Both the position numbers and the translations under genes were made by a program. Under the pieces are notes generated by a model that saw only the letters and a program-made list of their open reading frames with translations, was not told the DNA's origin and ran no database searches. DNA of 64,000 bases from Odiellus spinosus (taxonomy: Eukaryota > Arthropoda > Arachnida > Opiliones > Phalangiidae): contig OY987225.1 of assembly GCA_963920705.1 (NCBI GenBank), positions 3,856,501 to 3,920,500 of the forward strand, read 5' to 3'. Below, one piece after another: positions 52,470 through 64,000 of the stretch; within the stretch, counting starts at the first letter, position 1, and every line of letters begins with the position of its first letter.

Positions 52470-52522
52470 ACACCCGAAAGACTTCCCCAAGACCTCTTAA
52501 GACTAACTTTTTTTGGTAAGGG
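52470..52522. mobile_element. One-ended fragment of the CCCTTACC MITE
   Basis: This short stretch matches one end of the element at 57373-57564 in inverted sense: CCCGAAAGACTTCCCCAAGA, then CTTAAGACTAAC, a T-run and the end GGTAAGGG. The other end is absent, so the copy is truncated. Confidence 0.65.
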
Positions 52523-52563
52523 TGTCTAATTCAGCAGTTGCTCTTTTTTTTCTGATGGCACAG

Positions 52564-52740
52564 AGAAATAGAGATCGTAATCATGGATCTCGTATTGTGG
52601 ATGTTTACTATTACACCCCAGGTTCCATAGTAGGGAAACTACTCTCATTTAGAGATATTGAAAAATGCCTGTCCCTACACCCTGTTCAAGCTAAATCACT
52701 GACAAGTAAAAACTTTTCTATAACCCTTAAACCAATTGCA
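52564..52740 (+). pseudogene. MBD-like (methyl-CpG-binding domain) exon fragment, apparently degenerate
   Basis: After a T-rich tract ending in CAG (a plausible splice acceptor at 52561-52563), the frame gives RIVDVYYYTP, then GKLLSFRDIEKCL, then LTSKNFSITLKPI. The order DVYYY-P, a K-rich turn, a helix of the IEKYL type and an NFSF-like strand is that of an MBD domain. MBD proteins read methylated CpG in chromatin. The second arginine finger expected in the KxRS turn is replaced by leucine (KLLS), and there is an irregular insertion before it. The copy is therefore either diverged in function or dead. The open frame runs on to 52842 without a clear donor site. Confidence 0.5.
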
Positions 52741-53417
52741 TATCTTCCTCTGGAGATCTTCCATAAATTGTTGACTACTTATTTACTACCCTTGCATAAT
52801 TGCTATTATGGTTTAATTTCCTTTAATTTCTCTTTTCTTTAAATGCAATGTGTTAGTTCCGATACAAAAATTCGGCACAGTAAAATTTCAATTACATGGG
52901 TAACTACGTCAGTTATGCCTCTGACGATTAGTCCTAAGTTACTTGAGGGCATTAAACCATTACCTCCAAAAAACTTGAAAACTACTTTCAGAAAATAGGT
53001 GACCTCCAATCCCTTATTGAATTCTTGTATATATGAATCAGTTGTTACTCCTTTTGGGGTCTGCCCGGATAATCTCTCTATATGGTGAAATGGACAGTAT
53101 CTGTCTGATGGTTGGCATTCCAACGCAAGAGCGTTAGAGGCGCATCTCTTAGAGAACACACTTAATCAAGCTCTTGCTTATCGCAATGTTAGCAGGTTGC
53201 CGGGGTTTTTGGGTTAGATTATATCAAGGTCATTGAATCTTGTCCTAAAGATATACAGCATTCAGCATTTCACAAACAGATCATTTTGGTAATCCTCATT
53301 TTAACTTATAGGGGGGGGCTCGTTTTAACTTATAGGGGAAGTTAGTACTTGCCCATGAATTGCTGGCTAAATTTAGTATTTTCCCCTTACTCGCAGAATC
53401 AAACTCCCCAATACTCA
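52741..53417. other. Unassigned sequence, possibly downstream of the MBD-like gene
   Basis: Both strands have moderate open frames (including a 106-codon minus-strand one at 52839-53159), none with a known motif. TTTTAACTTATAGGGG occurs twice at 53299-53337. No gene called. Confidence 0.3.
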
Positions 53418-56415: not shown

Positions 56416-56925
56416 AAAATGCAGTTTAAATTGATCGTGCTTAATATTTGCTTCAGGTCTCGATTTTACCTTGATTCCAACTGGATTATCAAATTATTTC
56501 AATAAATATATTTTTTTTTTTGTTTTTTTGCTTTTGTCCAGGCTGTCAATGTTTTTCTCTCTCATTCCCTTTCTTTTTTGTAAAGTGGGGTATTGTAACA
56601 GGGACACTCTTACAAATACAGTGAAATATCCTAGGTACTCTTCTATCCAGATGCCATCATTTTCAGGAGCTAAACAGCATCCTTAAACTCCACCCAGGAA
56701 GAAACCTTGGGTAAGAGTGCGCTACCCATGAGGTCACCATCAAATGTAAATCAAATATTAGTATATAAGTTCTATTATTTCTATGTGGAATTGATAAAAC
56801 AATAACTTACCCTCATTTCATTATGTCTTAAATGATTTCTCTTTTAATTAAGTTTAAAGCGTTCACCTCATTTGTAAGAATAGTAGAAAAGTTAATTATT
56901 TACCCTGAGATCCTTTATGAGGTTT
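56416..56925. other. Unassigned AT-rich sequence
   Basis: A T-rich tract at 56508-56530 and a 71-codon plus-strand open frame (56471-56686) without known motifs are all that can be seen. Confidence 0.3.
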
Positions 56926-57024
56926 TTAAGCCTTGGTAAGTTGTTCAATATTTTCTCTTTGTTTCGCTATCATTTGCACGTTTTCGAGCTGTTGTTGTCT
57001 CGAATTTGCAACCAAAGCGTCATA
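56926..57024 (-). CDS. Candidate terminal exon, coiled-coil-like, unknown gene
   Basis: On the minus strand a T-rich tract ending TTTTTAG (57025-57031) is followed by 32 codons and a TAA. The peptide runs YDALVANSRQQQLENVQ, then MIAKQRENIEQLTKA, a charged Gln-rich segment that looks helical and protein-like. Upstream, a donor GTGAGT near 57223-57228 follows a frame ending TEYGYLV that would join in phase. I do not recognise the protein. There is no start exon that can be tied to it with confidence. Confidence 0.3.
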   Translation of the reverse strand, partial: YDALVANSRQQQLENVQMIAKQRENIEQLTKA

Positions 57025-57372
57025 CTAAAAATACAACCAAAAAAATTATCAACAAAAGCTACAGGAACATTGTAATTGTTATAGTTTTTAATTGATCTGG
57101 ACTGTTATAATATAAGTCATATAAAATTTCACCAAACGTTTTGAGGTAATTTTCAGTTAATTATTAAAGTTTCTGTAACGGTGACCACCCTTTTCGCCCT
57201 TCAATATAATGTAAGACCATCACTCACCACTAAGTAGCCATATTCAGTCCTGTACTTCAATTAAAACTTCTAGCTAATTTCAACGACTAAGGAAACCTCC
57301 CATAGAGGGCACCACTGGTCACGTTATCTGGTTCTCTGACGTAAGTCCCAAATAGAGGATATATAAAACCAA

Positions 57373-57564
57373 CCCTTACCAAAAAAAAATTTGTCTTAAG
57401 ATATGTCTTGGGGAAGTGTTTCGGGCGTCTTATGTAGTCTTTAGAGGTTTTGGGAAGTCTTCCACTATGTCAAGAAGTCTTGGGGAAGTCTTTAAGACTT
57501 CCCCAAGACTTTTGTAGTGTTCTTGAAGACCTCTTCAGATCAGACTAACTTTTTTCCGTAAGGG
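57373..57564. mobile_element. CCCTTACC-ended MITE
   Basis: A 192-bp element has ends CCCTTACC-A(n)-TTTGTCTTAAGA and, inverted, CCCTTACGG-A(n)-GTTAGTCT. The inside holds a near-perfect palindrome at about 57477-57513 made of AAGTCTTGGGGAAGTCTT and its inverse. A one-ended fragment of the same family lies at 52470-52522. No convincing target duplication was found. Confidence 0.75.
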
Positions 57565-57839
57565 ACACAATCAATCGTCAGCAGATCACATCCAACCCAT
57601 GATCACTTTATTTTTAAACCCTTTTTAAAGTATTGTACACACCTAACTGGTTTAAAGTCAATAAATATTAAATGAAATATGTTAACATACTATTTTAATT
57701 CTACTACCAAAAGCGGCGATTATATCGCGAACTCTACTCGCTAAGCCTAAATCCATAAAAAATAAATTTTAAACTGAAAATATTCTAGAAAAATTTCGTC
57801 GCTGATGCCAAAGATGATGAGGTCTCGTGTGTGCTACCA
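57565..57839. other. Flank of copia-1 with primer-site-like TGGTAGCA
   Basis: Mostly AT-rich. On the minus strand TGGTAGCAC (57831-57839) directly abuts the presumed outer end of the copia-1 LTR. That is the word used as primer-binding site by copia-2, and it would not be expected outside a 3' LTR. No gag coding follows it. A short minus-strand frame beginning MDLGLASRVRDI (from about 57756) is unassigned. Confidence 0.35.
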
Positions 57840-58124
57840 TTAAATCGATCAACGTTGTAGTTAATTAAAGTCTTTAATTAAATTCGATAAAACATTATAA
57901 CTTGTTAATATAACAAAGGTAAACTCTTTAAAGTTATTAAAAACTAGATCACATAACTGACTTAATAGATGACTTGTCTGTAAGGAGACTGAGGAGAGAC
58001 TGACTGTAGAATAAATTTGAGTGGCCCTAAAAAGAAATCAACTTTCTCTGCCAGTAGGTGGCGCTAATATAAAATGACCTTTGAAACCAAACATGTAAAA
58101 GCAATAATAGGTCATAAAATCACA
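57840..58124 (-). mobile_element. Copia-1 3' LTR (outer boundary tentative)
   Basis: Directly after a purine-rich tract, the minus strand starts TGTGATTTTATGACCTATTA, the same kind of start as the copia-2 LTR (TGATATAATGACCT). The length of about 285 bp is close to the 318 bp of copia-2. The outer end was placed by the TGGTAGCA word and lacks the usual CA, so it is uncertain. The LTR holds two AGGTCA half-sites and a CTCF-like site. Confidence 0.6.
58051..58064 (+). promoter_or_regulatory. CTCF-consensus-like site in the copia-1 LTR
   Basis: CCAGTAGGTGGCGC fits all 14 positions of the common CTCF consensus CCASYAGRKGGCRS. CTCF is an insulator/architectural zinc-finger protein of bilaterian animals. 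That it binds here is inference. Confidence 0.4.
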
Positions 58125-58137
58125 TTCTCCCTCTTTT
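58125..58137 (-). promoter_or_regulatory. Copia-1 polypurine tract
   Basis: The minus strand reads AAAAGAGGGAGAA immediately before the TG of the 3' LTR. Such a tract primes plus-strand DNA synthesis in LTR retrotransposons. Confidence 0.65.
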
Positions 58138-58183
58138 ACATAATTAGATTCCCAAACCATTTCACAATTCGTTTATATTTAAA

Positions 58184-59107
58184 TTATTCAATTTGTAACA
58201 TTTTAACACAGTTTATAAAAATATTTTTGTTTAACAATTTGGTTAAAATATCCGCAACGTTTTTCTTAGATTCCACAAATTTTAAACAAAACATATTACT
58301 GGCTAAATGGTCTCTAACAAAATGATATCTTATATCGATATGCTTGGATCGTTGGTTCTCGACACAGTTCTTTGAGTAGAAAATTGCTGACTGATTATCA
58401 CAATGAATTACTGGTTGTCTAAAGTTTAAATGAAATTGTTCTAATTCACGAAAAATTGGTATCAGCCACAGAAGTTCTTTGGTAGCTTCCGATACAGCTA
58501 CGTATTCCGCCTCCATTGTTGAGAGTGAGACGGACTTTTGTTTAATTGATCGCCAGGCAATGGGAGAAGATCCGATTCTGATGATATAACCACTAGTTGA
58601 TTTCCTGGTGTCACGATCCGAACCCCAATCGCTATCGCTATAGATTGATAATTCTGGATTCTGTTGATGTTGATAAATGATGCCTTGATCTGCCGTAGTT
58701 AATACATATCGAGTTAGTTGGCAAAGATGACTCCAGTGCGAATATCCAGGGTTACTGCTATACTGTGAGAGGGCTATTACGTAAAATAAAATGTCTGGAC
58801 GAGTTCTCTGCGCAACAAATAATAAACTTCCAATTAAGGATCTATAAGGGAATTTTTTCATTCTTTCCTGTTCCTCTTCTTCCGTCGGAGAGTCCTTTCG
58901 AGTTAATATAACGCTTGAAGCCATAGGTAGACTTACTGGTTCTTCTACTGTAATCTCGTAACGTTTTCCAATCTGATGAATATATGTAGATTGGTGAATC
59001 TTTAAAGATCCGTCTTCACGAAAGTTGAATTCGATCCCCAAGAGTTTACGTATCGGACCAAGATTCTTGATTGCAAAACGTCGTGATATGATCTTGAATA
59101 CTTCTTT
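58184..59107 (-). pseudogene. Copia-1 pol: end of reverse transcriptase and RNase H
   Basis: The frame opens after the TAG at 59108-59110 with FKIISRRFAIKNLG and LLGIEFNF, the end of the RT palm/thumb. It continues through the connection (GSLLFVAQRTRPDI, YSSNP) into RNase H. The RNase H catalytic acids are visible in YSDSDWGSD, STMEAEYVA, HCDNQSA and RSKHIDIRYH. The C-terminus NVADILTK leads to a TAA at 58184-58186. This part is undamaged. It lies about 60 bp before the LTR, the normal place for the end of copia pol. Confidence 0.92.
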
Positions 59108-59314
59108 CTATATATCTTCTGTTTTCGTGATTACTACGAGATCATCTACATAGACGAGAACTATAACCTTCTTTGGTAAATAATAAATACAGTTAGTCCC
59201 AATTAGTTTTGTGAATCCCAATTCGTGGAAGCTCTTATCGAGTTCGATAAACCATTGTCTTCCGCTCTGGGGTAGACCATACAACGCTTTTCTAAGTCGT
59301 AAGCAATATTTTCA
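59108..59314 (-). pseudogene. Copia-1 pol: RT active-site segment between two stops
   Basis: Between an in-frame TGA (59312-59314) and an in-frame TAG (59108-59110) the same frame reads RKALYGLPQSGRQW and LVYVDDLVVIT. YVDD (59141-59152) holds two of the three catalytic aspartates of reverse transcriptase. Both stops lie in the frame shared by the flanking segments, so they are point mutations, not frameshifts. Confidence 0.9.
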
Positions 59315-60589
59315 AGTTTCGGCAACGTGGAATCCTGGAATTTGCTTCATGAAGACATCATGATCGAGATTCCCATACAAATAGGCATTTTTGACGTCCA
59401 AATGACAATGCTTCCAACCAAGGCAGGTGACGAATAGTACGAGAAATAATCGAATTAAACTGAAGTTAATTACCGGGGAAAATGTATCGTCGTAATCAAT
59501 CCCTTCAAATTGATTGTATCCCTGAGCGACTAGTCTAGCTCGATAACGTGTTATTTTCCCTTCGGTATCTTTCTTCACTGTATAAACCCAGCGACATCCT
59601 ACAATCTTCTTTCCCGCTGGTTTTTCCGCAACTTCCGTTACGTGTCGTTCTTGTAACGTCTCGACTTCACTTTGCATGGCTATTTTCCACTGCTTAGCTT
59701 GATTAGACGCTACAGCTTCATCATACGTTGTTGGTATGACTATATTACTGCAATATGCAGCTAAAACTTCAGGAACTTCTTCATTAATAGGTTGATTAAT
59801 ATTTTCAGGAAGGTCTTCTGTTTCTTGTTTTAAGTATTTCTTCAATGATTTCTTTACCGATTTTCTTGAAAATTTAAATATCGCTGGATCATGCGTGAAA
59901 TCATTATCTTTCAAATATTGCGTTATTTCTGGTTTCGAACGAAATTGCCTTCCTTCTGGATTATAATAATAAACATCCGCATCTCCTTTTGATGCTCCCT
60001 TCTGTCGTATTGAGACACGTTTCATCCAACCTTCCGGTAATTCTTTGGTTTTGTGTTTCTTCGATATATCGACTGCTACTTCTTTAGAATCATCTCCCAA
60101 TAGGGTATTGGGTAATTCGTCTGATATTGCATCTTCAACCTGTTCGTTTTCTTCACCAGGATTTCCAATTGTAGTTTCATCAACGAAATCTTCAGTTAAA
60201 GATTCTTCAGTAGTCCATTGAAATTTAATATTATCTTCAATTAGAAGTTCTGGATTGATATTTCGAATACCCATCTTATCTTCATCAAATCTTAGATGTT
60301 TAGTTTCCACGACAATATTATCTTCTGGATACCAGATTCGGTGTCCTACGGTATGTGAAGCGTATCCAATTACTATTCCCGGTTTAGCTCTACTTTGGAA
60401 TTTGTTTTGTCTTCGTTCTTTCGGAATATGTACGTAAGCTAAACTTCCGATTCGTCGTAAGTGCATGGCACTAGGTTTATATCCCATCCAGAGCTCCAAC
60501 GGTACTGTATCTTCAAGTTTGGCATGTCTCGAGTGATTTTTAATATACGCCGCTGTCCTCACCAACTCGCCCCACAGCTTATTCGGCAA
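59312..60589 (-). pseudogene. Copia-1 pol: integrase C-terminus, MBD insertion, N-terminal half of reverse transcriptase
   Basis: A 425-residue open stretch. Residues 1-105 are the end of the copia integrase (KLWGELVRTAAYIKN, GYKPS, GSLAYVHIP, GIVIGYA). Residues 106-180 form an acidic linker. Residues 184-243 are a methyl-CpG-binding domain. A basic stretch (SVKKSLKKYLK) and another linker follow. RT begins near residue 300 (WKIAMQSEVETL, RWVYTVKKD, YRARLVAQGY, D-DTFSPV, LDVKNAYLYG with catalytic D398). The segment is a different frame from the upstream one because of a one-base loss near 60592, and it ends at a TGA. Confidence 0.9.
59861..60040 (-). other. Methyl-CpG-binding domain (MBD) inside copia-1 Pol
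   Basis: Sixty residues (184-243 of the segment ending at 59312) read LPEGWMKRVSIRQKG, then DADVYYYNPEGRQFRSK, PEITQYLKDN and a final IFKF strand. This is the full MBD layout of MeCP2/MBD1/MBD2: LPxGW start, first arginine finger (R195 in IRQKG), DVYY with the conserved Asp205 and Tyr207, second arginine finger (R217 in FRSK), helix, and closing strand. In known MBDs these residues contact methylated CpG. The domain is unbroken although the element around it is decayed. Its role in the element, such as steering integration or binding host chromatin, is inference. Confidence 0.85.
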
Positions 60590-61800
60590 TTTATACCTTC
60601 TTCAATAAAAGCTCGTACCATATTTAATAACGTTCGATTAATTCGTTCTGCTACTCCGATCATTTGTGGCGAATACGTATTAGTCTTTTCGTGTCGAATG
60701 CCTTCTTTAACGCAAAATTCTGTAAATTGATTAGAACAGAACTCCAACCCATTGTCAGTTCTAAGTGCCTTTATGTTCTTATTCTTCTGTTTTTCAACGT
60801 AGGTCTTATATTTCTGGAAACAGTCGAATGCTTCGCTTTTCTTCGCCATCAAATAAATAGTCAGGTAACGCGTTTTATCGTCCAAGAACGTGATGAAATA
60901 TTTCGCTCCACCACTTGATTTTATAGGGGCTGGTCCCCAGACATCACAATGGATTAATTCGAGTACGTCGTTACTTCTGATATCGTCGATCCTTTTGTGA
61001 GATTGTTTCGTTGATTTAGCTAATTGGCACGTAGAACAGTCGTTCAATGATCCTTTTAGCGTTTCCAATCCCCTCAGCATATTATTTGATGCCATAAACT
61101 TTAAGTCCTTTTCAAGTTCTCTAATTTCTCGATTTTCCGAAATATAGGTTTTCGACATTTCTTCAGGTTCATCTTCTGGTGGCCCATTAATTAATACAGT
61201 AAGGTCGACTTTGTAAAAATTATCCGATGATAATGGTGCTTCAAATGGAACTTTTCCTTTTGGCGAGTAGACTGTATATTTTTGATTCTCCCTGCGTCCA
61301 CTATACCCAGCTTGATCTATGATTCGTTCCGAGATCAAATTACGTCCCATTCCTGGAGTATATATAACATCTTCAAGTTTGATTATGTTTTTCAATTTAT
61401 TGTTCATTTGAATCCAAATATCGCCTCGTCCTTCTACCCTTGATTGTCCTTCGCCAACCATGGCCTGTCCTTGATACGGTGTAAATGAGTAAAACCACTC
61501 CCGCTGATTGCAAAAATGCTTGGTCGCACCAGAATCTACGATCCATTCCTTCATTATAGCCGTCGTGCATAATGCCGTTGCAAAGAAAACTTCTTTTTCT
61601 GATTTCTTATCATCTCTTGATTTCCTTTTATCAGGCAGTCGACAATCGTTCGCTCGATGACCCACTTTGTTACAGTTGAAACATGTTCCATTGAATCGAC
61701 TTGACTTATTACTCTCTTTGTTGTTGTATCGTTTGTACGTAGTATTTTCTTTATCTTTTGATTTTCTCTCTCTCCTGTCAGTGTTGAGCCGCAAAAACAT
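60559..61800 (-). pseudogene. Copia-1 gag end, protease and integrase catalytic core
   Basis: A 413-residue open stretch. A CCHC zinc knuckle lies at residues 40-53 (CFNCNKVGHRANDC). The aspartic protease motif DSGA is at 89-92 (WIVDSGATKHFC). The integrase core has D286 (HCDVWGP), D349 (LRTDNG) and E385 (GVAER), with exactly 35 residues between the last two, as in the D,D-35-E signature. The zinc-binding N-terminus of integrase keeps its two cysteines (CSTCQLAK) but the usual paired histidines are not visible. GVAER is preceded by MI where copia elements usually have QN. The frame ends by a one-base shift near 60592. Confidence 0.92.
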
Positions 61801-62001
61801 TGGTCATGGATTGATTCGCAGAATCTCGTTGAACTTGTCTTCCATGTTCATTAAGAAGAATCTTCTTTATCGGTTCGGGTTTAAAGTTATCATCGTCAAA
61901 TTGATAAATCTGCGCTGTCAGTGAATCGTAAGATATTGGCAATGTTCCAATCATCTTATAAGCAATGTCTTTATCTTCTGTTAGAATATGTTTATTTTTT
62001 T
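61780..62001 (-). pseudogene. Copia-1 gag remnant (N-terminus removed by copia-2)
   Basis: On the minus strand, directly next to the copia-2 LTR, the frame reads HILTEDKDIAYKMIGTLPIS and later LNEHGRQVQRDSANQ, then a TGA near 61786. This aligns with the copia-2 gag segment ISDAMLAYRLIGSLPPSY, a UBN2/Retrotran_gag family capsid region. A one-base shift near 61790 separates it from the zinc-knuckle frame. Confidence 0.85.
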
Positions 62002-62009
62002 TGATATAA

Positions 62010-62031
62010 TGACCTTTGACCTAATTGACCT
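62010..62031 (-). promoter_or_regulatory. Triple AGGTCA nuclear-receptor half-sites in the copia-2 LTR
   Basis: TGACCT occurs three times, at 62010-62015, 62017-62022 and 62026-62031. On the minus strand this is AGGTCA, 3 bp, AGGTCA, 1 bp, AGGTCA, that is a DR3 joined to a DR1. Such direct repeats are the classical binding sites of nuclear hormone receptors. Copia-1 has two scattered half-sites in the same part of its LTR. Function is inferred. Confidence 0.5.
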
Positions 62032-62043
62032 ACTAGGGGGCGT
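62030..62043 (+). promoter_or_regulatory. CTCF-like word in the copia-2 LTR
   Basis: CTACTAGGGGGCGT matches 12 of 14 positions of the CTCF consensus CCASYAGRKGGCRS and lies directly after the AGGTCA cluster. It is on the element's sense strand, whereas the copia-1 site is on that element's antisense strand. Confidence 0.3.
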
Positions 62044-62208
62044 TTTCACCCATGATCCTTGTTAAGTTCGTCTGCTTAGAATACTCAATTTGTTCATTCC
62101 ATTCTCTGCTCTCTCCCTGTACACTTCATGGTTTTTAGTGAGAAGAATATCTTAGGTTAGCTCTAAGTTAGTTAATTTTAGTTATGTTTAAGTTATTAAT
62201 ATGAATTA

Positions 62209-62214
62209 AATAAA
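62209..62214 (+). promoter_or_regulatory. AATAAA polyadenylation signal in the LTR
   Basis: A canonical hexamer in the second half of the LTR, about 105 bp before its end, as expected near the R region. Confidence 0.45.
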
Positions 62215-62319
62215 CAAGTTATTTTGTTATAAATTATGGTAGTCATTTATTTAAGCCCTATCGACAATATATATTACGCGGACCTCTGAAGAAATGGACG
62301 ACTATTTTCTCGTTCAACA

Positions 62320-62328
62320 TGGTAGCAG
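62320..62328 (+). promoter_or_regulatory. Primer-binding site, initiator-Met tRNA type
   Basis: TGGTAGCAG directly follows the LTR. It is complementary to the 3' end (CTGCTACCA) of animal initiator methionine tRNA, a common primer of Ty1/copia elements. Nine bases match; the next bases do not continue the match cleanly. Confidence 0.75.
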
Positions 62329-62548
62329 TAGCTTTGGTGCTCAACTTGGTCACAAGGCCTAACTTGGTTTCAACAATGAAGACAACAATGGATGATGATG
62401 CAATTTCACACTGGGCTTGCGTTGACTACACGTATAGTTAAGTACAACTGAATCGTTTTTTTTTAAAGAAGATTTTACTGGGAATTTATGAAAAGAGCAA
62501 CTTTCAACAATCTTTTTAAAGTGAAGATAACAGAGAGAGCTAACAAAT

Positions 62549-64000
62549 ATGGCGGAATCACAAAATTTTTCGAATTTCTCTATGGGACAATCAACTAAAT
62601 TGGATAGTCATAATTTTCGGACTTGGAGGTATGAGTTGGAACATATTTTGAAAGCATATCGTTTATGGGACATAGTCACTGGGGCAGAGACTATATCTGA
62701 GAAGAATCCAGAATCATTTAAAGCGAGAGAATCAAGGGCCCATGCTATAATAGCATTAAGCCTTAGTGAGGATGTCAGAGATATAATTATTGATAAACAT
62801 ACATCGGCCGAAGCGTGGATAGAGTTAAGTAACGCATTTATGCCCAAATCAAGGGCTAGGATAGGGGCTTTATTGAAGGAATTTACAACAATCGAATATC
62901 AGGAGGGCGAATCGATGAGTAGTTATATTGGAAGACTTACTCGCATTGTGAAACAATTAGCCGAAGCTGGGGAAACAATTTCCGATGCGATGTTAGCTTA
63001 TCGTTTAATTGGCTCTTTACCTCCTTCATATCAGATGTTGGCGGAACACTTGTATTTATTATCGGATTCTGACTTTACACCCACGTATATTAAGGATGCT
63101 TTATTGGCTGAATACGGTAGACGTACCATCGAAGCTGATCAGAAGTCAAATGCCTTGTCTGTTCAGAAAATATCTCAATCAAGACACAGTAAACAGCTAA
63201 ATCATTCATCAGGAAACCGTGATCAACAACAATCCCCACTGAATCGCCAATCTACTAGTCAAGGTCAACATTCAATGAACACTTATCCCAATCAACAATC
63301 GACCAACAATTATCGGAGTCACCAATCGACAAACAATTATCAAGGTCAACAACAATTAAATACAATTCGTCCAAGTCAACAGTCAAACAATTATCGGCGA
63401 CATCAATCATCGGACAACTTTCATCGAAGTTTCAATTCGAGATTCAACGGAGACTGTTTTAAATGCGGTAAACGTGGTCATAAAGGGGTGGACTGTCGTA
63501 GTCGATATCAGTCACCGTCTCGTCGGCCATTTCACGAAGATAGAACAAAAGCGAGTCTCGCTTTCGCCTGCGTTACTGAGCTAGAAGCGGATAAATGGGT
63601 GATCGATTCTGGAGCGACACATCATTTTTGCAATAAAAAGGAATGGTTTTCATCATATCAGCCTCACACGTCAGATGTTGGTGTTGGTTTTGGAAATACT
63701 CGAGCAATTGGTACAGGAAATATTTGGATTCAAGTGGGAAATATCGACCTTTGCCTGAAGAACGTCATTCATACCCCAGATATGAGACACAATTTAATAT
63801 CAGCACGTTTATTGGACGCGGCTGGTTTCAAGGGAGTATTTCATAAATCGAATTTACGAATATTTGAAGATGGAGTTTATCTATTCGAGGCACCATTAAA
63901 GAAGAATTTTTATACTATTGATGCGACAGTCTTCTTAACCGATCAACCTATTCCAGCAGCTTATAATACGATGGCCGAAGATACAAATTCTAGTCTACTC
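62549..64000 (+). CDS. Copia-2 gag-pol polyprotein, N-terminal 484 residues (runs off window)
   Basis: The frame opens at ATG 62549 (MAESQNFSNFS; a second Met lies at residue 12) and has no stop to the window end. Residues 15-200 are the copia capsid (DSHNFRTWRYELEHIL, AWIELSNAF, SSYIGRLTRIV, LAYRLIGSLPPSY). Residues about 215-300 are a Gln/Asn/Ser-rich linker of degenerate tandem repeats around QQSTNNY. A CCHC zinc knuckle starts at C303 (CFKCGKRGHKGVDC). The aspartic protease motif is at D353 (WVIDSGATHHFC), followed by protease/GAG-pre-integrase sequence (NVIHTPDMRHNLISARLLDA). Integrase and the rest lie beyond the edge, so whether it carries an MBD cannot be seen here. Gag packages the RNA; protease cuts the polyprotein. 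Confidence 0.95.
   Translation, partial: MAESQNFSNFSMGQSTKLDSHNFRTWRYELEHILKAYRLWDIVTGAETISEKNPESFKARESRAHAIIALSLSEDVRDIIIDKHTSAEAWIELSNAFMPKSRARIGALLKEFTTIEYQEGESMSSYIGRLTRIVKQLAEAGETISDAMLAYRLIGSLPPSYQMLAEHLYLLSDSDFTPTYIKDALLAEYGRRTIEADQKSNALSVQKISQSRHSKQLNHSSGNRDQQQSPLNRQSTSQGQHSMNTYPNQQSTNNYRSHQSTNNYQGQQQLNTIRPSQQSNNYRRHQSSDNFHRSFNSRFNGDCFKCGKRGHKGVDCRSRYQSPSRRPFHEDRTKASLAFACVTELEADKWVIDSGATHHFCNKKEWFSSYQPHTSDVGVGFGNTRAIGTGNIWIQVGNIDLCLKNVIHTPDMRHNLISARLLDAAGFKGVFHKSNLRIFEDGVYLFEAPLKKNFYTIDATVFLTDQPIPAAYNTMAEDTNSSLL

Follow-up and report, generated by a model that had tools for sequence, protein, structure and literature searches.

Integrases that carry a chromatin reader are known among retroelements. 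The nearest precedent that we found for the locus described here lies in the same superfamily, the CoDi-A Ty1/copia elements of diatoms, whose integrase took up a putative chromodomain at its C-terminus (Llorens et al. 2009, PMC2774666); neither "MBD" nor "methyl-CpG" occurs in the main text of that paper. In the Ty3/gypsy chromoviruses and in Ty3, a reader or tether, namely a chromodomain, follows the integrase C-terminal domain (PMC8632968). In Ty5, a copia element, the target chromatin is decided by a part of the integrase, a targeting domain of six residues that binds the host protein Sir4 (PMC7175516). DNA-methylation machinery, too, has been taken up by retrotransposons, namely by those bearing a methyltransferase (de Mendoza et al. 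2018, PMC5890265); the main text of that paper contains no MBD and describes Symbiodinium copia elements without any methyltransferase domain. Here we describe a Ty1/copia lineage of spiders and of Odiellus spinosus in which a methyl-CpG-binding domain (MBD) is a standing part of Pol, on the integrase tail.

The window (the whole stretch of 64,000 nucleotides of O. spinosus DNA that was analysed) contains a broken Ty1/copia element, copia-1, at 62020-58184 on the minus strand, delimited by stop-to-stop frames and Pfam matches. Its Pol pieces follow the Ty1/copia order, with integrase before an RVT_2-type reverse transcriptase (RT), and all of them lie on the minus strand. What is left of gag, at 61778..62020, matches the C-terminal part of Retrotran_gag_2 (PF14223) with 24.9 bits, short of the cut-off of 27, and precedes a frame at 60559..61803 that holds the zinc knuckle of gag (PF00098, 27 bits against a cut-off of 20.8), Pol_BBD, gag_pre-integrs (below cut-off), and the integrase core (rve). 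The frame with the C-terminal part of integrase, the MBD, and the N-terminal part of RT (429 aa stop to stop, 59312..60601) is followed by one at 58184..59107 that matches RVT_2 at its C-terminal end (27.5 bits, under the cut-off of 31.6). This last frame can be aligned to copia proteins over their RT-RNase H end and presumably includes RNase H. Because Pol is split over 61803-60559, 60601-59312, and 59107-58184 and only a remnant of gag is left, this copy is dead, as the initial annotation had stated. No LTR pair was found, in that 56800-62400 holds no direct repeat of at least 60 bp, and the 5' end is cut off by a second element, copia-2, on the plus strand (62002-64000). Copia-2 has gag, a zinc knuckle, and Pol_BBD in a single open frame (62531-64000) and a 5' LTR at about 62002-62319 (by eye), and over 212 aa it shares 39% identity with copia-1. 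It starts where the gag remnant of copia-1 stops (read by eye), so it was probably inserted into copia-1.

Three Pfam families match the 429-aa frame above cut-off, whereas a fourth, Crr6, stays below it: SH3_retrovirus, the integrase C-terminal domain (PF25597, E 8.2e-24, aa 40-110, 60272..60484); MBD (PF01429, aa 185-250, 59852..60049); and the N-terminal part of RVT_2, the copia reverse transcriptase (PF07727, E 1e-29, aa 322-426, 59324..59638). The MBD lies about 75 residues after SH3 and about 70 before RT, so that a domain of the reader type is placed after the integrase C-terminal domain. This is the arrangement that had been read from the DNA alone, a single frame running from the integrase C-terminus through an MBD into RT, and the Pfam match covers the 59861..60040 interval originally assigned to the domain. 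No chromodomain appears among the Pfam matches of the window frames or of the relatives tested; the element is thus not a chromovirus.

The identity of the domain was supported by hmmscan, phmmer, and Foldseek, used in place of HHpred. The Pfam match scores 54.3 bits, the cut-off being 21 (E=1e-14; hmmscan on the 429-aa frame), and the best match among solved structures is MBD2 (6c1a, 1.1e-12; phmmer), followed by MBD3 and MeCP2. An AlphaFold model of 82 residues, made from an alignment of 20 sequences, has a mean pLDDT of 75.5 with core block means of 81-91, and its predicted strand-strand-helix order is that of an MBD. Foldseek returned 34 matches to this model at E<=0.001, all to MBD-type domains; the leading ones are MeCP2 (6c1y on top, 2.1e-6) and MBD4, bound to methylated DNA, and the MBD folds of BAZ2 and SETDB2 are also among them. 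As a control, all 1,183 stop-to-stop pieces of at least 25 aa from the six frames of the window were scored by a copia-MBD profile that contained no window sequence: the 429-aa frame reached 3.9e-14 and the next-best piece 0.0079. Together with the domain matches, this control shows that the MBD of copia-1 is real and not a chance similarity.

The second-best piece of the window is a weakly MBD-like open reading frame at 52507-52842 on the plus strand (0.0079 and 0.00079 with two copia-MBD profiles; Pfam 0.021, below cut-off), in which a DVYYY motif is followed by a helix-like part. It has no relative among solved structures and may be what remains of a host MBD gene or of another element.

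In MeCP2 and MBD2, methylated CpG is contacted by two arginine fingers and an Asp-Val-Tyr motif. The roles of the corresponding residues in the window MBD are assigned by us from these two proteins, on the assumption that they are equivalent. The whole set is present: R199 (60005-60007) and R221 (59939-59941) in stop-to-stop numbering, which are R195 and R217 of the initial annotation with an offset of 4, together with D209 and Y211. The LPEGW, DVYYY, and FRSK motifs noticed at the outset were all found as well, and neither a stop nor a change of frame interrupts the domain. Not all members of PF01429 are known to bind methylated CpG selectively. Position 207, which we take to be the counterpart of an MBD2 lysine important for this selectivity, is D in the window MBD and R or K in the 32 other readable rows.

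Rather than being private to the window copy, the integrase-MBD-RT order recurs in further copia proteins, and the domain, far from being absent from other family members, is present in many of them. A protein search with the 429-aa frame (best 120 of 220 matches) and another that started from an Argiope protein (35 matches) together gave 151 proteins among the matches listed. By our own profile, 34 of these 151 carry the MBD; of the 24 pieces that went into the profile, 23 came from database proteins chosen by motif, so that 23 of the 34 fit by construction and 11 are further finds. The named hosts are the spiders Araneus ventricosus and Argiope bruennichi (Araneidae), and two of the proteins (P0001 and P0002) are ENA sequences. 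Two Araneus clusters are large, P0140 representing 217 member sequences and P0003 representing 47. Pfam gives the order rve-SH3-MBD-RVT_2 with every domain above cut-off in P0001, P0126, and P0140, the same order with rve below its cut-off in P0005, SH3-MBD-RVT_2 in P0016, and MBD-RVT_2 in P0058; P0002 has no Pfam MBD at E 0.001 and is matched by our own profile, itself partly built from P0002. In an alignment of 11 rows, the MBDs occupy the same place between SH3 and RT. A model of 420 aa for P0007, which is of the Araneus type, has a predicted MBD part with pLDDT 75-91, and Foldseek relates it to MeCP2 and MBD4 at a probability of 0.97-1.00, but with E values of 0.03-0.10 and ranks below the RT matches. 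The domain call itself was not hidden, since a few family members are already labelled "MBD domain-containing protein" in public records. Searched against proteins on its own, the MBD region gave nothing at E<=0.01 among 76 candidates, and thus no near host relative within its length range; the viral and genome contigs scanned held no relative, and NCBIfam had nothing further on MBD.

Is the domain under selection, as the initial annotation had judged probable for the time when the lineage was active? On the one hand, distant lineages conserve the MBD about as much as integrase and RT, and the linkers flanking it are not conserved: between P0001 and nine other copia rows, identity is 47-57% in the MBD, 47-53% in RT, and 14-29% and 17-30% in the two linkers, and it is 49-57% in SH3 (eight rows). 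The key residues are kept as well. Across 35 aligned MBDs, R occupies the position of the first arginine finger in all 33 readable rows, the placement of this finger in the Araneus/Argiope MBDs resting on a three-residue gap; the second finger is R in 32 of 35 rows (two G and one I otherwise), the Asp of the mCpG site is kept in 32 of 33, and the Tyr in 31 of 33. As far as sequence comparison goes, these two observations point to selection on the MBD. On the other hand, near copies show no additional constraint, since their MBDs and linkers are alike in identity (P0003 versus P0007, P0126, and P0140: 91-93% in the MBD, with 4-5 of 57 residues differing, and 90-100% in the linkers), and the window MBD is intermediate: it is 28-39% identical to the other copia MBDs, against 42-59% for its SH3 and 40-55% for its RT, and it reaches 46% with MBD2. 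The judgement is therefore supported by the distant lineages and the key residues, and not by the near copies or the window copy.

What might an MBD do on a copia integrase? The reading that we favour, with somewhat better than even confidence, is that of an inherited tether on the integrase tail that would hold the enzyme to methylated CpG, in spiders favouring gene bodies. After processing of Pol, the MBD would remain on integrase and would bind methylated CpG through its two arginine fingers, thereby keeping the integration complex on methylated DNA. The domain would act like a chromodomain or the Ty5 targeting domain, except that it would read DNA methylation itself. In such hosts, the methylated target would be mainly gene bodies, and mostly introns, which are transcribed and tolerant of insertion. 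This prediction follows from the methylation landscape of the spider Stegodyphus, which is mainly genic, and from the length of its introns: about a third of genic CpGs are methylated versus 5% of intergenic ones, and the listed lengths are 5,453 for introns and 381 for exons (PMC6409797). The same paper reports that transposable elements (TEs) are methylated inside genes and hypomethylated between genes, with means of about 35% methylated CpGs in DNA TEs and about 17% in RNA TEs, so that gene bodies would not be the sole methylated target; in an arthropod survey, TE methylation in chelicerates is described as low to moderate (PMC7343188). Given the genic bias in Stegodyphus, the comparison with heterochromatin-seeking chromodomains, which the initial annotation had drawn, may mislead. 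On the whole, what that annotation had observed is confirmed, and its interpretation is partly supported.

Around copia-1 CpG is not depleted, which counts against the tether and is in line with sparse methylation: the observed/expected ratio in the non-satellite DNA of the window is 0.87-1.24 in the longer pieces and 1.60 in the 231-bp MBD piece. The A+T-rich satellite at 11-43925 (62-bp unit, with longer periods of about 125 bp) is nearly devoid of CpG, with 20 in 44 kb.

The same undepleted CpG would suit a domain that is a general DNA- or chromatin-binding module, tying integrase to cDNA or nucleosomes with no reading of methylation. The weak points of the mCpG reading also argue for such a module: position 207, which is D in the window copy, and the three loop residues missing between the first finger and the DVYYY strand in the Araneus/Argiope MBDs (P0003, P0005, P0140, and kin). 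Since the full loop is present in P0001, P0016, P0058, and the window, the copia MBDs may, judging from their alignment, be of two types that differ in binding. The MBDs of BAZ2 and SETDB2, whose folds are among the Foldseek matches, are not known to be selective for mCpG. Both fingers and the Asp-Val-Tyr motif are nonetheless kept in nearly all readable rows, and we regard a general module as a minority possibility.

Whether the MBD was inherited was addressed with RT trees. In the first tree (132 rows), the MBD label needs four changes, and a group of 51 rows includes 29 without the domain. However, 27 of these 29 have at most two residues before the RT start and cannot show an MBD, because they begin at or just before that point or later; the other two have 46 (P0031) and 315 (P0052) residues upstream. 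Separately, 20 of 32 MBD-less RT rows (P0017 to P0080) begin at the same point just inside RT; most of these are lgn-source proteins, and a few come from Araneus. We therefore kept in the tree only the 69 of 131 rows that have 115 aa or more upstream and added the window (70 rows in all, 138 columns; midpoint root), with P0018 scored as an MBD row though only the C-terminal half of its MBD is present. All 22 MBD rows and P0052 then form one group (support 97/91), with the MBD-less P0004 and P0020, which have long upstream sequence, as its sister. P0052, a Trichonephila clavipes gene model that was kept in the tree, is the sole row without an MBD among them and the reason why two changes are still forced by the starred branches; it is doubtful evidence, since the model skips from SH3 straight into RT, and a clade of the 22 MBD rows alone is not rejected (p-AU 0.31). 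As 17 of the 22 rows belong to one Araneus/Argiope family, they amount to about six distinct lineages, counting P0058, which lies outside the tree; "clade" is used provisionally here, the trees being midpoint-rooted. The MBD-copia clade may be wider than spiders.

The single RT group speaks against recurrent capture, by which the window MBD, separately from those of spider copia, would have been gained or replaced from an MBD2-like gene of the host, and with which any function is compatible. What suggests it is that the window MBD shares 46% identity with MBD2 and 39% with MBD4, as against 23-32% with other copia MBDs (28-39% in another alignment). Being nearer to MBD2 than to the copia MBDs, it has either retained ancestral sequence or been recaptured. 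Moreover, the other lineages, each left out in turn, score 60-91 bits against a profile of the rest and the window only 52.6 bits. The same profile of other copia MBDs, however, places the window above MBD4 (42 bits) and MBD2 (35 bits), and the window and P0001 have in common a KDND stretch and the helix-to-tail spacing. We accordingly lean towards a common origin of the window and spider MBDs and hold recurrent capture to be unlikely. That an animal copia clade has long used an integrase-fused MBD to choose sites by DNA methylation, aiming at gene bodies, is a wider proposal, which we put forward tentatively, at slightly less than even confidence.

Pol products are produced at low levels and packaged into particles. 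This argues against the idea that the MBD is a decoy or counter-silencing device, competing with or hijacking host MBD2/3-type repressors at methylated copies and leaving integration unsteered, and so does its place on the integrase tail, the site of known targeting parts. That MBD2 is the closest solved structure to the window MBD and that spider TEs within genes are methylated (PMC6409797) would fit a decoy, which we nevertheless find quite improbable. That a host exon landed by chance in a dead copy, or that the assembly is at fault, is suggested by the broken state of copia-1 alone and is practically out of the question: the window frame is unbroken through the MBD, and homologues in at least two named species carry it at the same site between SH3 and RT, which rules out the insertion of a stray exon.

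The tether thus stays our preferred reading, and several things would follow from it. To our knowledge, the described integrase-borne readers and tethers bind histones or proteins, and we know of no earlier retroelement that reads a DNA mark directly with its own protein; if the reading is true, MBD-copia would be the first. A self-encoded methylation reader would tie host methylation directly to the sites of new insertions, and the effect of gene-body methylation on transposons in invertebrates would become testable with genomes and bisulfite data. As a methylation reader, the copia MBD would also be a natural tool domain. An MBD in a copia Pol, of which the initial annotation knew no description, is not described among the matches listed from a body of full-text literature from which subscription papers are largely, and bioRxiv preprints wholly, absent. 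While readers on retroelement integrases as such are known, the MBD as the reader, its occurrence in copia and in these hosts, and the mark that it is expected to read are, to us, new.

HIV integration guided by LEDGF is biased to gene bodies. By analogy, gene-body targeting by a copia MBD would be the reverse of heterochromatin seeking and closer to this choice by HIV (for LEDGF binding, see PMC8632968). The host proteins MBD2/MBD3, MBD4, and MeCP2 resemble the copia MBD in sequence and predicted fold but are cellular chromatin proteins outside any Pol. The methyltransferase-bearing retrotransposons (PMC5890265) acquired a writer enzyme and are other types of element, whereas MBD-copia has a domain of the reader kind. 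In Ty5, the part of the integrase that decides the target is likened to the proposed role of the MBD, but it is a short peptide for a host protein and not a folded domain of the type that reads a DNA mark (PMC7175516). The Ty3/gypsy chromoviruses and Ty3 have their reader or tether in the same position, after the integrase C-terminal domain, and differ in superfamily, gene order, and reader (PMC8632968). Closest are the CoDi-A elements, which share with MBD-copia both the superfamily and the capture of a reader at the integrase C-terminus; they differ in that a putative chromodomain does the reading in a diatom host (PMC2774666), where MBD-copia has an MBD and lives in animals.
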